Origin: Natrialba asiatica DSM 12278
GTDB lineage: Archaea > Halobacteriota > Halobacteria > Halobacteriales > Natrialbaceae
Assembly: GCF_000337555.1 (NCBI RefSeq)
Contig: NZ_AOIO01000038.1
Coordinates: 45,144-95,281, forward strand
Length of the DNA: 50,138 bases
Direction of reading: 5' to 3'
Shown here: in pieces, positions 4,155 to 10,983 of the stretch
How the letters are laid out: each line of letters opens with the position of its first letter
How positions within the stretch are numbered: the first letter of the stretch is position 1
The notes under the pieces: model-generated
What the model was told of the DNA's origin: nothing
Database searches by the model: none
Seen by the model: only the letters and a program-made list of their open reading frames with translations
Position numbers and translations under genes: made by a program

Positions 4155-4337
4155 ATGCCCATCGCTGTAGAATCTCGCTTGGCACCGTCAGTCCTGATTG
4201 CCAACGTTGCCATCCCCACCGTCTTTATTGCACTCATTCTGCTCGTAGGAGGGCTGATTACCGGTGGGATAGCGTTCGTCCTCGTCCATCTCTTCCGTAG
4301 GTTTTCCACCAAATCGGAAGAACCCAGTGACCGGTGA
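4155..4337 (+). CDS. small single-span membrane protein
   Basis: 60-residue protein, not recognised. A short polar N-terminus (MPIAVESRLAPS) is followed by one long hydrophobic segment of about 30 residues (IANVAIPTVFIALILLVGG and onward), then a basic then acidic tail (RRFSTKSEEPSDR). It may be a single-pass membrane protein with its C-terminus in the cytoplasm. Its TGA stop shares one base with the ATG of the methyltransferase gene, so the two are almost certainly co-translated. It could be a membrane anchor or partner for that enzyme; this is inference from gene order only. Confidence 0.6.
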   Translation: MPIAVESRLAPSVLIANVAIPTVFIALILLVGGLITGGIAFVLVHLFRRFSTKSEEPSDR

Positions 4338-5002
4338 TGCGGAAACGGACGCGCAATTCACAGGAGAGCAAAGCGTGGTACAACGCGCTTAGTCGGTACT
4401 ACGATGTGCTGGTCGATCCCTTTCAAGGTCCTCTCCGACGACGGGGGATCGGTTTCCTCGGCGTATCCTCAGACGACCAAATTCTCGATATCGGCTGTGG
4501 AACCGGTCGCGGCTTGACCACGCTGCAGAACGCCGTTGGACCCGGCGGCAAAGTTGTCGGTATCGACGTTGCAGACCGGATGTGTCAGCTCGCACAAGAT
4601 CGTGTTGAAGTCGATGCCTCATCTGCAGTTGTCTGTGGCAATGCGCTGGCGTTACCGTTCGACTCCGACAGTTTCGACGCCGTTCTCGTAAGTTTCACGC
4701 TCGAACTGTTCGAATACGAGTGTCAGATGGCCGTACTTGACGAGATACGTCGGGTGCTCGCTCCACGGGGTAAAATTTGTGTCATCGCCCCCTCAACAAC
4801 AGCGAGCGATCTCGTTTCTCTCCTCTACAAGCGACTCAACGACGTTTTTCCGACGCTCGTCGACAGTCGACCTCTCGATGTTGGTAGCGTCCTTGCCCGA
4901 GCCGATTTCGAGATCATCCAGACCGAAATGGAGTGGGTATTGGCTGTGCCGGTCGAACTCGTCTTCGCCCGTCGTGGTCCGTCCGCGGGAGACCGATCCT
5001 GA
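4337..5002 (+). CDS. class I SAM-dependent methyltransferase (UbiE-like)
   Basis: 221-residue methyltransferase with the Rossmann-type SAM site. ILDIGCGTGRG is motif I, VVGIDVADRM is the acidic loop that binds the ribose, and LPFDSDSFDAVLVSF is motif IV. Layout and length resemble UbiE/COQ5-type and Methyltransf_11 enzymes, which methylate quinones and other small molecules; the substrate cannot be read from the sequence. The gene is translationally coupled to a small membrane protein upstream. It converges tail to tail (96-base gap) with the quinone reductase-UbiA fusion gene, so a role in quinone or prenyl-lipid modification is possible but unproven. Confidence 0.8.
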   Translation: MRKRTRNSQESKAWYNALSRYYDVLVDPFQGPLRRRGIGFLGVSSDDQILDIGCGTGRGLTTLQNAVGPGGKVVGIDVADRMCQLAQDRVEVDASSAVVCGNALALPFDSDSFDAVLVSFTLELFEYECQMAVLDEIRRVLAPRGKICVIAPSTTASDLVSLLYKRLNDVFPTLVDSRPLDVGSVLARADFEIIQTEMEWVLAVPVELVFARRGPSAGDRS

Positions 5003-5098: not shown

Positions 5099-6622
5099 TC
5101 AGGTGAGATTGAGCAACGGCACGATGGCGAACCAGACCAGAAAGCTCAGCGAAGCGACCATCAGCCCGTCGATGCGAGCGGGGGTCGTCCGGTTCCCCAA
5201 TCGGGTTCGAAGGAGCCAGACGAGTGCAAGCGCATGGGGAACGCTGAGAGCGACCAGCGGCCCGTAGAGGCCGCCGCCGATACCGAGCGCCGCCCAGACG
5301 ACTCCCGTCAGGCTGGCCAGCAGTGCGGTCGCCGCCGCGACGGTCGCAGCGCCGTCGATCCCGAAACGAACGGCGATCGTCTCCTTGTCGGCGCTCCGGT
5401 CGGCGGAGCGGTCCGGAATACCCGCCAGCGTGATCGACGGGAGCACGGCCAGCAGAAACGGGATCGAGAGCAGCCACGGCAGCGGATCGGTCGCCGCACC
5501 GCCCTGGACGACGTACCCGCACAGCAAGACGCCGGTGCTGTGGGTGAGGGCCACGTCGAGTTCACCGAGCGTTCGGTAGGAGAACTCGAGCGGCGGGAGC
5601 GTGTAGCCGAGCGCCAGCGCGCCGAGGGCGATCATGACGGCCGCTGTGAGGGGGGTCGAACCGAGGCCGACGGCGAGGGCAGCCCCGCCGGCACCGACGG
5701 CGAACAGGAGCGCGACCCCGATTCCGCGGCGCAGCGCCGCGAAGTCGAGTTCACCGTCGACGAGCACCCCCGAGCCGCCGGTGAAGGGGCCGGCGAACGC
5801 GTTTTCGCGGTCGGATGGATAGTCGATGAACTCGTTGGAAAGCACCGTCGCCGCCTCGAGAAAGAACAGGAAGGTGAAGCCGAGCCAGTACGGGAGCGAC
5901 GAGACGGCGTCGCTCGAACCCGCTGCCGCCAGTGCGCCGATCGTGTACGCCGCCCACGCCATCGGGTAAAACTGCAGTCGGAGGGCTTTCAGCCACGCCG
6001 TCGTCCGGCGGCGAACGCGTGTCGAGCGGGAATCGGGACCGTCGGCGAGGCTGCGCCCCAGCCGGGTCGCTTTCTCGAGCCACGCCTCGCGTTCGTCCGG
6101 CGTGGACGATTCGACCGGACCCAGGTTCGTGATTCGAGTGGTTCGGATGCCGGCGTAGCCGAGCGTCGCGCGTTTGACGGCGTTGTTTCCCGGCTGGCGG
6201 TAGATCCAGCGGTAGACCCACGGGGGCATGTCCATCGTGACGAGCAATTCGGCGGTCGTGTCGTCCAGAAGCCCCTCGTGGCCCGCGCCCTCCCCCTCGT
6301 CGTACTCGACGAACGCGAAGCCGGGCGTGAAGACGCGGTCGAAGAAGCCCTTGAGCCGCGCCGGCATCGTCCCCCACCAATTCGGGTAGACGAAGACGAG
6401 GTGGTCCGCCCAGCGGATCGAGTCTCGGGTCTCGCGGAGGTCGGGTTCCAGTCGCTGGTCGCTGGGAGAGACCTCGTGGACGTCCGGATCGAACGCGAGT
6501 TCGGCGACGGCGAGTTCGCGAACGTCGACGCCGGCCTCGAGCGCCCCGTCGCGGTATGCAGCAGCCAGCGACCCGCACAGGCTGTCGGTCCGGGGGTGAC
6601 CGAGGACGAGCAGGACGTTCAT
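5099..6622 (-). CDS. fusion: flavodoxin-fold NAD(P)H quinone reductase + UbiA prenyltransferase
   Basis: 507-residue two-part protein in one uninterrupted frame. Residues 1-195 are a Flavodoxin_2 (NQO1/MdaB-like) domain: LVLGHPRTDSLCGSLA is the FMN phosphate loop, and VYPNWWGTMPARLKGFFDRV is the family signature that stacks on the flavin. After a basic linker (RSTRVRRRTT), residues 210-507 form a UbiA-type membrane prenyltransferase with about eight or nine hydrophobic spans. Its two Asp motifs are NEFIDYPSDREN (about 264-275) and DRSADRSADKE (about 413-423), which bind the Mg-pyrophosphate of the prenyl donor. Each half is near normal length. The combination suggests reduction of a quinone-like ring coupled to prenylation at the membrane. 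Both domain assignments are strong; the joint reaction is inference. Confidence 0.88.
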   Translation of the reverse strand: MNVLLVLGHPRTDSLCGSLAAAYRDGALEAGVDVRELAVAELAFDPDVHEVSPSDQRLEPDLRETRDSIRWADHLVFVYPNWWGTMPARLKGFFDRVFTPGFAFVEYDEGEGAGHEGLLDDTTAELLVTMDMPPWVYRWIYRQPGNNAVKRATLGYAGIRTTRITNLGPVESSTPDEREAWLEKATRLGRSLADGPDSRSTRVRRRTTAWLKALRLQFYPMAWAAYTIGALAAAGSSDAVSSLPYWLGFTFLFFLEAATVLSNEFIDYPSDRENAFAGPFTGGSGVLVDGELDFAALRRGIGVALLFAVGAGGAALAVGLGSTPLTAAVMIALGALALGYTLPPLEFSYRTLGELDVALTHSTGVLLCGYVVQGGAATDPLPWLLSIPFLLAVLPSITLAGIPDRSADRSADKETIAVRFGIDGAATVAAATALLASLTGVVWAALGIGGGLYGPLVALSVPHALALVWLLRTRLGNRTTPARIDGLMVASLSFLVWFAIVPLLNLT

Positions 6623-7496: not shown

Positions 7497-10127
7497 ATGG
7501 TCGAATACACCAGGCGGACGCTGATGGCATCGTCGACGGCGGCGGCGCTCGGGGCGGGATTACTCGGGACGGCCCACGCGGACGATGGGGAGGACGAACA
7601 CGACACGAAGACGGCACCGTACGTCAACGGGAACATCAAGCGGTTCTCGACGACAGCACGGGGAGCGGAGGTTACGGGCCCGTTCGTCTTCGAGACGGGC
7701 GAGTTGCTCTACAGTCTCCAGCATCCGAGCGGCGACAACCCTGCGCCGTTCGACCGCGGCGGCGTCGGCGTCGTCGACGATTTCCAGTTCACGTTCGACG
7801 GGACGAGCGACGAGTTCGACGAGCTGGACGCGCCGCGGACCAACGCGGAACAGGCCGAAGTACAGTCCGCCGCCGGCCAGTATCGGCTCCTCGTTCAGGC
7901 GGGAGACGAGATCAACGGCGGGACCGAGCGCTTCGGCCACCCGCAGACGCCGGCCGGCGAGGACCTCGGCGACATCGTCGAGGAGAATTACGAGGGCATC
8001 GGCGAGCAGGCCGACATGAACTTCTTCGTCGCGACGAACGACGACGGCACGGAGGGCTACCTCTTTACCAACAACGAGACGCGACCGGGGGCGATCTCGC
8101 GGACGCCGCTGTACCGCGACGCGGACGGCTACTGGCAGGCCGACCTCGAGAACGCGATGGAACTCGAAAACACCGACGCGTTCCGCGCGATCGGCGGCAC
8201 GAAGATCAACTGCTACGGCGACCTCAGCCCGTGGGAGACGCCGCTGTCGGCCGAAGAGGAGTACGGCCACGCGCGGATCAACGGCCTCGCGACGGTCGGC
8301 GACATCGTCGAGCAGGGAAGCGGCGTCGGCCTCCGCGGGGGAAGCGAGTTCTGGAACCGACCGAACATCCTGGACGTCGAGAACTCGCTCGAGGAGATCT
8401 TCGGCGCGGACAGCTGGTACCCGATGGGGCTGAGCAACAACAGGGGGACCGAGAAGATCGCCTACCACCTCGGCGCTGAGCCGGTCGACATCGCCGACGG
8501 CGAGAACACGCCCCAGCCCATCGAGGACGAGGTGTTCCCCAACCGCTACCGCTACGGGAAGATCGTCGAGATCACCGATCCGACCGCCGACGAACCGACG
8601 CCAGTCAAACACCACGTCTTCGGTCGATCCGCCTGGGAGTGCCCCGAAGTCCTGCCCGACGAGCGCACCGTCTACCTCGCCTCCGACGGCGGAGCGAAGG
8701 GGATCTACAAGTTCGTCGCCGACGAGCCGATTCCGGCGTACGACGACCCGATGGACGTCCGCGGCACGCTGTACGCGATCAAGGCGAGCGAGATCGGCGA
8801 AGGCACGGTCGGCGAAACCGACCTCGCCGTCGAGTGGCTCGAACTCGGCACCGCCAGCAACGCCGAGGTCGAGTCCTGGATCGCCGAGTACGACGACGTG
8901 ACGCAGGTCGACTACCTCGAAACCCACGCCGAGACCGACTGGGAGGACGACCTCGAGACGGCGCTCGCCGAGGCCGACGAGGAGGTCGCCATCAACGGCA
9001 ACCAGGATTACATCACCGACGAGGAAATCGTCGAATGGGCCGCCCAGTACGAAGAGCGCGGTCCCGACGGCGTCGACGACGACCTCCGTCGCGTCCCCTT
9101 CCTCGAAACCCGCGCGGCCGCCAAGGAGATCGGTGCCAGCATCGAGTTCAACAAGGCCGAGGGGATCGACTCGCACGACGAGGCCGCACCCGGCGATTTC
9201 ATCTACTTCGGCATCTCCTCGCTCGGCGGCTCCATGACCGACGACGAGGGACAGCTGCGGTTCGACGAGGTCGACACCGGCGTCGTCTACCGCGCCGAAC
9301 TCGAGTCGGATTACAACGTCTCGCGGCTCGAACCGGTCGTCGTCGGGCCGAACGCGAGCGATTCGGAGTCGCTGCAGGACGCCTCGCTCATCAACGTCGA
9401 CAACGTCATGGTGATGGACGACGGACGGGTGCTGCTCTGTGAGGACAAGGGAAGCTTCGGCCGTTCCTACCCCAACGACGCCATGTGGGTGTACGAACCC
9501 CCGGCGGTGATCCGCGTCGACTCGCTGGCGGTCAGCCAGGAGGCGACCGGCGAGATCGACCTGACGCTGTCGTCGCTGCCGAACGGCATCGCAGGCGGTC
9601 GCGTCACCGTGGCCCTCGAGCACACCGACGTCGCGTCGATTGCGGACGCCACCTACGGCGACGGATTCGAACTCACCGCAGCGCCGGAGATCAGCGAGGA
9701 CGGCTCCGCGGTCGAGTTCAGGTTCGCGGACATCGAGAACGAGATCGAGCCGGGGACGACGGAGACGACGCTGGCGACGATCGAACTCGAGGGCGTCGGC
9801 GCGGGAGCGACGGACGTGACGGTCGAGGTCCACGATCTGGACGACGATTCGGGGATGCCGATCGAACCGCAGCGCCGGCCGGGCGTCGTCGTCACCGGCC
9901 CGCCGCCGATCGGTGGCGGCCCGGGCGGCGGTTCGCCGACCGACCCGGACGGCGACGGCAAGTTCGAGGACGTCAACGGCAACGGCCGGGTCGACTACGA
10001 CGACGTGGTCGTGCTGTTCGAGAACATCGACGACGACGCGGTCCAGTTGAACGAAGACGCGTTCGACTTCAACGAGAACGGCCAGATCGACTACGACGAC
10101 ACCGTCGCCCTTTACGACGAGCTGTAA
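7497..10127 (+). CDS. PhoX-family alkaline phosphatase with cohesin-like and dockerin modules
   Basis: 876-residue secreted protein. TRRTLMASSTAAALGAGLLG is a twin-arginine signal with an AHA cleavage site. Residues about 40-660 belong to the PhoX/DUF839 family of metal-dependent phosphatases: CYGDLSPWETPLSAEE near 239, YPMGLSNNRGTEK near 306, and GRSAWECPEVLPDERTVYLA near 376 match the family blocks. Residues about 668-800 (VIRVDSLAVSQEATGEIDLT onward) form a beta-rich cohesin-like domain. After a Gly/Pro linker comes a C-terminal dockerin: DPDGDGKFEDVNGNGRVD and FDFNENGQIDYDD are two calcium-binding loops. The gene is followed four bases later by a surface-anchored cohesin-like protein. The family would release phosphate from organic esters outside the cell. 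Domains are clear; substrate and docking partner are inferred. Confidence 0.88.
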   Translation: MVEYTRRTLMASSTAAALGAGLLGTAHADDGEDEHDTKTAPYVNGNIKRFSTTARGAEVTGPFVFETGELLYSLQHPSGDNPAPFDRGGVGVVDDFQFTFDGTSDEFDELDAPRTNAEQAEVQSAAGQYRLLVQAGDEINGGTERFGHPQTPAGEDLGDIVEENYEGIGEQADMNFFVATNDDGTEGYLFTNNETRPGAISRTPLYRDADGYWQADLENAMELENTDAFRAIGGTKINCYGDLSPWETPLSAEEEYGHARINGLATVGDIVEQGSGVGLRGGSEFWNRPNILDVENSLEEIFGADSWYPMGLSNNRGTEKIAYHLGAEPVDIADGENTPQPIEDEVFPNRYRYGKIVEITDPTADEPTPVKHHVFGRSAWECPEVLPDERTVYLASDGGAKGIYKFVADEPIPAYDDPMDVRGTLYAIKASEIGEGTVGETDLAVEWLELGTASNAEVESWIAEYDDVTQVDYLETHAETDWEDDLETALAEADEEVAINGNQDYITDEEIVEWAAQYEERGPDGVDDDLRRVPFLETRAAAKEIGASIEFNKAEGIDSHDEAAPGDFIYFGISSLGGSMTDDEGQLRFDEVDTGVVYRAELESDYNVSRLEPVVVGPNASDSESLQDASLINVDNVMVMDDGRVLLCEDKGSFGRSYPNDAMWVYEPPAVIRVDSLAVSQEATGEIDLTLSSLPNGIAGGRVTVALEHTDVASIADATYGDGFELTAAPEISEDGSAVEFRFADIENEIEPGTTETTLATIELEGVGAGATDVTVEVHDLDDDSGMPIEPQRRPGVVVTGPPPIGGGPGGGSPTDPDGDGKFEDVNGNGRVDYDDVVVLFENIDDDAVQLNEDAFDFNENGQIDYDDTVALYDEL

Positions 10128-10131
10128 GTCG

Positions 10132-10983
10132 ATGTATCGCCACGATAGCGAGCCGGTTTCGGAGACGCAAACCCGGTCGCGCAACCAGAGTCGGCGCCGA
10201 ATCGCGGACGCGGACTGGTCGCGCCGACTCTCCCGAGCGGTCCTCGCCGCCCTCGCGATCGGGATCGTCCTCGGACTCGGCGTCGTCGCCCCGGTCAGCG
10301 GTGCCGGATCGACCGCCGCCGTCGCCTCGACGGGAACCGATGCGGCGGGAGCGGCGAACCTGGCCCCCAGTACCGTTACTGCTACCGCCACCGCAGGCGA
10401 CCCCGAACTCGTCGTCTCCAACGGGACGATCGCTCCCGGCGACACCGGCACGCATCGCATCGCGCTGACCGACGCGCCGGATGGACTCGCGGGGTACAAA
10501 CTCGAACTCGAGTTCAGTTCGGAGGGCGTGGCGACGGTCACAAACGCCAGCTACCCCGAGCGGTTCGGGCTGACGACCGACCCCATCGTCAGCGCGGACG
10601 GCCAGTCGCTCACCGTGGAAGCCGCGGATCTAGACGACGAGATCACGGCCGGTGCGACGAACGTCACGCTGGCGCGGATCGATGTCGACGGCGTCGAGGC
10701 GGGAACGACCGATCTGCAGGTCGCGGCGATGCAGATCGACGCCGACGGTGGAAGCCCTGTCGAACCCGCGATCGAGGCGGGAACCGTGACCGTCGGTGAT
10801 GGTGGGACCGAGGCGGGACACAACCAATCCGCCGACGGCGACGCGGAATCCGACGGGAGTGGAACCGAAAGCGGCCCCCTCGCCGACACCCCAGCCGAGT
10901 CGCTGCCCGGCTTTACGGGGACACTCACGCTCGTCGCGGTTGTGGCGGCGATCGCAATCGGGACGGCCGCTCGCCGGGATTGA
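10132..10983 (+). CDS. cohesin-like surface protein with PGF-CTERM anchor
   Basis: 283-residue exported protein. A basic N-terminus is followed by a hydrophobic signal segment at about 36-57. Residues about 85-210 form a cohesin-like beta-sandwich (VSNGTIAPGDTGTHRIALTD, then GYKLELEFSSEGVATVTNAS) closely resembling the domain at the end of the PhoX protein. A low-complexity acidic linker leads to LPGFTGTLTLVAVVAAIAI and terminal Arg residues, a PGF-CTERM signal recognised by archaeosortase A. That processing attaches the protein to a membrane lipid. Only four bases separate it from the phosphatase gene, so they form an operon. The natural reading is that this protein holds the dockerin of PhoX at the cell surface, an inference from architecture and gene order. 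Confidence 0.85.
   Translation: MYRHDSEPVSETQTRSRNQSRRRIADADWSRRLSRAVLAALAIGIVLGLGVVAPVSGAGSTAAVASTGTDAAGAANLAPSTVTATATAGDPELVVSNGTIAPGDTGTHRIALTDAPDGLAGYKLELEFSSEGVATVTNASYPERFGLTTDPIVSADGQSLTVEAADLDDEITAGATNVTLARIDVDGVEAGTTDLQVAAMQIDADGGSPVEPAIEAGTVTVGDGGTEAGHNQSADGDAESDGSGTESGPLADTPAESLPGFTGTLTLVAVVAAIAIGTAARRD

Follow-up and report, generated by a model that had tools for sequence, protein, structure and literature searches.

A quinone reductase fused to a UbiA prenyltransferase in haloarchaea and bacteria: a candidate enzyme for accessory quinone prenylation

Quinone prenyl transfer is thought to require the hydroquinone form of the acceptor. Enzymes of the UbiA superfamily use a wide range of acceptors. 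Quinone reductases of the NQO type are soluble, act on short quinones and work as dimers whose interface holds the flavin.

According to the relevant part of one report, UBIAD1, the vertebrate menaquinone-4 synthase, made no MK-4 from menadione when DTT, the test-tube reductant, was omitted, and its authors stated that menadione must be reduced for prenylation (PMC4398444). Two steps of menaquinone synthesis in haloarchaea are noted as gaps still to be filled in PMC8305020. In a survey of archaeal protein fusions, the main text contains neither 'UbiA' nor 'prenyltransferase' (PMC11237513). No description of a reductase-UbiA fusion was found in the open-access PMC literature searched. As far as these searches go, the architecture is undescribed; the two constituent enzyme kinds are already known.

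The fusion gene and its conservation

The window, i.e. the whole analysed stretch of 50,138 nucleotides from Natrialba asiatica DSM 12278, contains an uninterrupted 507-codon reading frame from ATG to stop on the minus strand (5099–6622, Table 1), and the fusion that it encodes is present as one copy in the genome. The first-pass annotation described a complete Flavodoxin_2 domain and a complete UbiA domain with both Asp motifs in one frame, and this description was upheld. The Flavodoxin_2 match extends over profile positions 1–192 of 198 (113.9 bits vs. a cut-off of 27, E 1e-32), the UbiA match over positions 6–237 of 250 (66.5 bits vs. 34.2, E 2.8e-18), and the Asp motifs are kept in 40/40 aligned fusions. 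The alignment (A1) comprises 40 of 60 distinct fusion proteins, without the shortened protein L064, one of the 60, and the contig-end cuts L065 and L068.

Table 1. Features of the fusion gene and its convergent neighbour (positions in the window)
Feature	Position	Strand	Basis
UbiE-like class I methyltransferase, convergent neighbour, outside the conserved unit	4334..5002	+	Profile matches; gap of 96 bp to the 3' end of the fusion gene
Fused protein, 507 aa: N-terminal NQO/Flavodoxin_2 reductase and C-terminal UbiA prenyltransferase	5099..6622	-	Pfam, conservation in 33/392 genomes of the order
Flavodoxin_2 (quinone reductase) domain, residues 1–183; GHPR and P-x-WW motifs invariant	6074..6622	-	Pfam, alignment, structure matches 3lcm, 4r81, NQO2, NQO1
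Junction, residues 184–215	5978..6073	-	Model, alignment, dN/dS
UbiA prenyltransferase domain, residues 227–478 by Pfam; fold 203–507	5189..5944	-	Pfam, PDB profile match, structure
First Asp motif N263xxxD267xxxD271	5810..5836	-	Invariant in 40/40 fusions
Second Asp motif D404xxxD408	5399..5413	-	Invariant in 40/40 fusions

An AlphaFold2 model built from the 40 fusions has a mean pLDDT of 90.3 and a pTM of 0.77. Structure matches divide it into residues 1–198, which resemble quinone reductases, and residues 203–507, which resemble UbiA enzymes including UBIAD1. The link between the halves is very short: the last reductase helix (175–194) and the first UbiA helix (199–214) are separated by a break at about 195–198. 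In the alignment R215 of the junction is invariant, as are Q217 and F218 just after it.

The first-pass annotation proposed a search for this architecture in other archaea and named, as what would speak against it, orthologues that are always separate genes and a sequencing error at the junction. The full-length fusion, with no internal stops and with 61–100% identity, was found in 33 of the 392 genomes of the order (its own genome counted), 30 in the window's family and 3 in another (f14), and it occurs in bacteria too. Fusions close to this one are those of Natrialba taiwanensis (97% identical) and N. aegyptia (95%). Within the sampled genus the distribution is patchy, three of seven genomes having the fusion (G000, G276 and G368, against G071, G226, G303 and G362). 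Among 80 loci kept from a named collection, 27 have both domains in one frame (19 haloarchaeal and 8 bacterial by title; one is shortened and one cut at a contig end), L068 runs off the contig edge soon past the reductase half, and the other 52 loci encode a reductase on its own. Among the bacteria with the fusion are Litchfieldella xinjiangensis, Lutibaculum baratangense and metagenome-assembled genomes (MAGs) labelled Burkholderiaceae, Gammaproteobacteria, Gemmatimonadetes and Microvirga. In the Litchfieldella family, 201 genomes were covered and 13 have the fusion, Litchfieldella among them; in the Lutibaculum order it was detected in 1 of 199, which is Lutibaculum itself. A plasmid of Roseinatronobacter sp. 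S2 bears the sole annotated copy noticed, merely as an 'NAD(P)H-dependent oxidoreductase', which leaves the membrane half unnamed. Pfam confirmed both domains in this copy and in the five other bacterial copies tested. Judging only by names and sources, many of the carriers are halophilic or stem from alkaline or soda waters.

The dN/dS ratio is 0.06–0.31 over both halves and the junction (comparisons with two genus members and three family members) and 0.06–0.21 for residues 190–215 at the junction, indicating purifying selection. That a frameshift or a missing stop fused two genes here is improbable in the extreme. No point in favour of such an artefact was found, and a sequencing-error origin of the junction is rejected because intact, stop-free fusions recur within the order and in more than one bacterial phylum, with purifying selection over the junction.

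One variant deserves a separate record. In Natronolimnohabitans sp. A-GB9 (L064, 10001–11179) the fusion is shortened in frame to 393 aa; its UbiA match begins at profile position 94, so the first Asp motif is probably missing.

The two halves compared with known enzymes

The structures matched by the reductase half are 3lcm (Z 23.7, rmsd 2.0 over 184 residues), 4r81 (Z 22.9), NQO2 (Z 22.6, rmsd 2.2 over 190) and NQO1 (Z 22.3), and its sequence matches are also quinone reductases. With NQO1/NQO2 and the bacterial and archaeal NAD(P)H:quinone oxidoreductases (3lcm, 4r81) it has in common the fold and a P-x-W-W ... K-G-x-x-D-R stretch. It differs from them in the attached membrane enzyme and in the turn that reads TTGG in NQO1/NQO2: the fusions do not keep the GG and have TMD-x-P at this position, as do most single relatives from the named collection. 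Invariant in the 40 fusions are G8-H9-P10-R11, P80, W82-W83, D95-R96 and P133. The nearest kin are the single-gene Flavodoxin_2 reductases with TMDTP or TMDSP (52 of the 80 loci), 41–53% identical; these fall outside the fusion clade and have no UbiA domain, nor was one found in the surrounding DNA examined. By profile and fold this half is of the quinone-reductase type, with predicted flavin binding and NAD(P)H:quinone activity. Since NQO-type enzymes act as dimers, the fusion protein is probably dimeric as well.

For the UbiA half, the best sequence-profile match in the PDB is UBIAD1 (8djk, E 2.5e-6), followed by an archaeal DGGGP synthase (E 9.8e-6). Its structural neighbours are ApUbiA, UBIAD1, DGGGP synthase and AfUbiA, with Z of 22.4–23.5 (4od4: Z 23.5, rmsd 2.8 over 260 residues); the comparison speaks for the matches listed, and families outside the list may fit too. 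Invariant in the 40 fusions are N263, D267, D271, D404, D408, Y340-T341, R350, K413 and T415. Profile, fold and both Asp motifs place this half in the UbiA superfamily and predict prenyl transfer. It falls far short of all the NCBIfam cut-offs for quinone enzymes (best MenA-type model 35.2 vs. 277 bits), the top single NCBIfam UbiA model being the unspecific PRK12884 (47.4 bits), and five bacterial fusions likewise stay under the MenA equivalog cut-offs.

In the UbiA tree, 22 fusions are represented by their UbiA halves, which group as a single clade (100/97) inside a MenA-like group. This clade adjoins MenA (96/89), the DHNA polyprenyltransferase and nearest UbiA subfamily, and lies away from the organism's own lycopene elongase, haem O synthase and E. 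coli UbiA. In a second tree, to which UBIAD1 was added and from which five long-branch or distant UbiA rows were removed, the fusions stand beside a group of MenA, UBIAD1 and DGGGPS (92/84); UBIAD1 joins MenA (96/88), its exact place being unsure on account of a long branch, and the fusions remain a separate clade (100/97). MenA differs from the fusion in the longer spacing of the motif that reads NxxxDxxxD in the latter, and the two coexist in one genome (L033). UBIAD1 has the UbiA fold in common with fusion residues 203–507 (Z 23.3) but no reductase domain, and its region past the first motif is unlike that of the fusion. Scoring under the MenA cut-offs and standing apart from UBIAD1 in the tree, the UbiA half seems to resemble the MenA/UBIAD1 group and is assigned to neither.

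The reductase halves of 24 fusions (among them L065 and the contig-cut L068) also come out as one clade (95/97) in a tree with 73 single reductases. Because each half forms a single clade, it is probable that the fusion arose once and that the joined gene was then passed on whole and moved between bacteria and archaea; the trees leave room for more complex histories. The haloarchaeal clade is nested among the bacterial fusions in the UbiA trees, and the two lie side by side in the reductase tree. The fusion is old and present in two domains of life.

Other UbiA contexts were met in the course of the analysis. The Natrialba asiatica genome encodes a further UbiA fusion (L031, 1435–2925, minus strand), in which the UbiA part exceeds the cut-off for CtaB (haem O synthase) and the N-terminal part reads as CtaA-like; L167 contains a HAD-like/UbiA frame. 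Both resemble the present fusion in joining UbiA to another domain, and differ from it in the partner, as read from the sequence, and, for L031, in belonging to the haem O synthase subfamily. A further uncharacterised context is provided in haloarchaea by UbiA enzymes that are encoded singly and bear a GGSGAL-type motif (L195, L196, L198, L200, L204–L208), several of which adjoin DUF547-like genes (Pfam-tested in L195 only) and AhpC-like genes.

Host quinone pathways and gene neighbourhood

The Natrialba asiatica genome encodes nine UbiA-family proteins, including a MenA above the cut-off (L033), and the candidate role of the fusion as the genome's MenA was rejected since a true MenA is present. 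Both menD and menA exceed the cut-offs in 9/9 haloarchaeal carriers tested. Among 17 bacterial carriers, a set with MAGs that are possibly incomplete, menD is above the cut-off in one (G394), menA in three (G394, G558 and G559) and ubiA, the ubiquinone enzyme, in 15; the futalosine-route family PF02621 has no match in any of the 17. Carriers thus keep MenA (haloarchaea) or UbiA (most bacteria), and 16 of the 17 bacteria lack MenD, which argues against a de novo step. Bacteria with no MenD would make no naphthoquinone by that route, so that the head group would be external or a benzoquinone. Occurrence in both menaquinone and ubiquinone organisms, beside their own prenyltransferase, points to an accessory role with a head group that does not stem from any single fixed pathway. 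In two Litchfieldella-family genomes (G558 and G559), the distance between menA and the fusion is about 25 and 14 kb, with no menD above the cut-off and, by eye, no men genes around.

The first-pass annotation correctly noted a convergent UbiE-like methyltransferase gene and raised the idea of a mini pathway of three functions. The neighbour is adjacent and belongs to a UbiE/MenG-like family; it scores 72.8 bits against a UbiE/MenG cut-off of 158.35. The genes are convergent and hence not one operon. A phmmer search over the loci found the methyltransferase beside the fusion solely in the window's own genome (hits in the window, L001 and L037, which are one genome); the search covered L001–L119 and L155–L189, with flanks of 1.5 kb for L002–L030 and with L067 and L069–L119 having no fusion. 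N. taiwanensis (L040), whose fusion is 97% identical, has no such gene at this place. A conserved three-function unit is therefore rejected for the loci searched, and such a pathway appears very improbable.

No neighbour is common to all fusion groups. Recurrent neighbours across groups are limited to broad ABC-type ATPases and a GSDH-type sugar dehydrogenase in four loci (L049, L060, L155, L156), and those of the haloarchaeal fusions track genus-level synteny. In this clustering the gene caller missed the fusion in L054, L056 and L182, the L169 call is a reductase-only match, and L167 and L168 had been included for another UbiA gene. In 6 of the 12 halomonad-family loci (L158, L159, L160, L162, L164 and L165 of L155–L166) a SRPBCC gene (Polyketide_cyc2) adjoins the fusion head to head; as SRPBCC folds bind lipids, its product may be a carrier. 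Stress-type genes (KatE catalase, Ku-LigD, SOD, hemerythrin, SDR) surround the fusion in 5 of 19 bacterial loci. In these 19 loci KatE was counted in two, Ku with LigD in two, hemerythrin in two and related SDRs in three, vs. 0, 0, 0 and 3 in the 52 single-reductase loci. A membrane PQQ-type glucose dehydrogenase lies within 10 kb in 3/19 (L057, L161, L166) vs. 0/52, and a close GSDH-type gene in 2/19 vs. 1/52, L060 having a more distant one. This enrichment is a hint only, because the queries were taken from fusion loci, which biases the counts, and the two locus sets differ in taxonomy.

Gene pairs elsewhere lend no support to the coupling: among 20 loci with single-gene UbiA relatives (L190–L209), none of the called genes was hit by the reductase profile, in a search with a crude GC-frame gene caller that found the UbiA gene in 17 of them (missing L192, L193 and L197).

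Beyond the fusion, the window holds a PhoX-type protein (Pfam PhoX; 7497–10127, plus strand) whose C-terminus reads as dockerin repeats. Directly after it, a gene with no Pfam match (10132–10983, plus strand) reads as a surface protein of the cohesin type that ends in a PGF-type anchor. By this reading the two are a possible archaeal cohesin-dockerin pair.

Proposed role and its alternatives

We propose that the fusion protein would sit in the cytoplasmic membrane as a bifunctional enzyme. Both active sites would face the cytoplasm, since the soluble domain, which by eye has no signal peptide, stands ahead of the first UbiA helix. The NQO-type flavin domain would pass two electrons from NAD(P)H to a quinone without a side chain, either by nature or through loss of the chain, and the MenA/UBIAD1-like membrane domain would then add a polyprenyl chain to the resulting hydroquinone, giving a membrane quinol. 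As UBIAD1 needs reduced menadione, a fused quinone reductase would supply that step on the spot, and the cell would not have to cope with a free quinol that autoxidises. The fusion would act beside the cell's own quinone pathway, in salvage or detoxification, perhaps under stress. We give this accessory reduce-then-prenylate role roughly even chances. Points that weigh against it are the low scores of the UbiA half in the quinone-enzyme models, the grouping of UBIAD1 with MenA apart from the fusions, the missing GG in the reductase turn and the lack of MenD in 16 of the 17 bacterial carriers. The suggestion of the first-pass annotation, that a fused redox/prenylation enzyme serves a quinone or aromatic prenyl-lipid step, fares well in part: folds, invariant motifs and phylogeny point to a quinone, while the three-function extension does not stand.

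Two other readings are each unlikely, to a similar degree. The order of events might be the reverse, the UbiA half prenylating an aromatic acid or phenol and serving as a membrane tether, and the reductase then acting as an antioxidant that holds this product, or the quinone pool at large, in the reduced state. The NQO-type folds are compatible with this, as are the stress-type neighbours in 5 of 19 bacterial loci and the nearby PQQ-type (L057, L161, L166) and GSDH-type (L060, L155, L156) dehydrogenases, which are quinone-linked by reading only. The UbiA half is more than an anchor, however, because its motifs are invariant, and NQO-type enzymes are soluble and act on short quinones. Equally, the UbiA half might prenylate a non-quinone acceptor, such as a carotenoid, a lipid or another phenol, with the flavin domain performing an unrelated reduction in the same pathway. 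The breadth of acceptors in the superfamily, the unspecific PRK12884 as best model and the lack of a route to naphthoquinone in most bacterial carriers would fit; the position of the clade beside MenA, away from lycopene elongase, haem O synthase and E. coli UbiA, and the quinone-reductase type of the other half speak against it.

In a wider and more tentative form, the accessory reduce-then-prenylate reading would make the fusion a self-contained NQO plus UBIAD1-like synthase that catches free quinone head groups (menadione-like ones, or benzoquinones in ubiquinone users) and turns them into membrane quinols, a means of salvage or detoxification common to archaea and bacteria and apart from de novo synthesis. 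If this is true, a natural fusion in two domains of life would name, by its anatomy, the coupling partner and would offer a one-protein test system; for halophiles, it would further suggest a route by which quinone head groups are salvaged.
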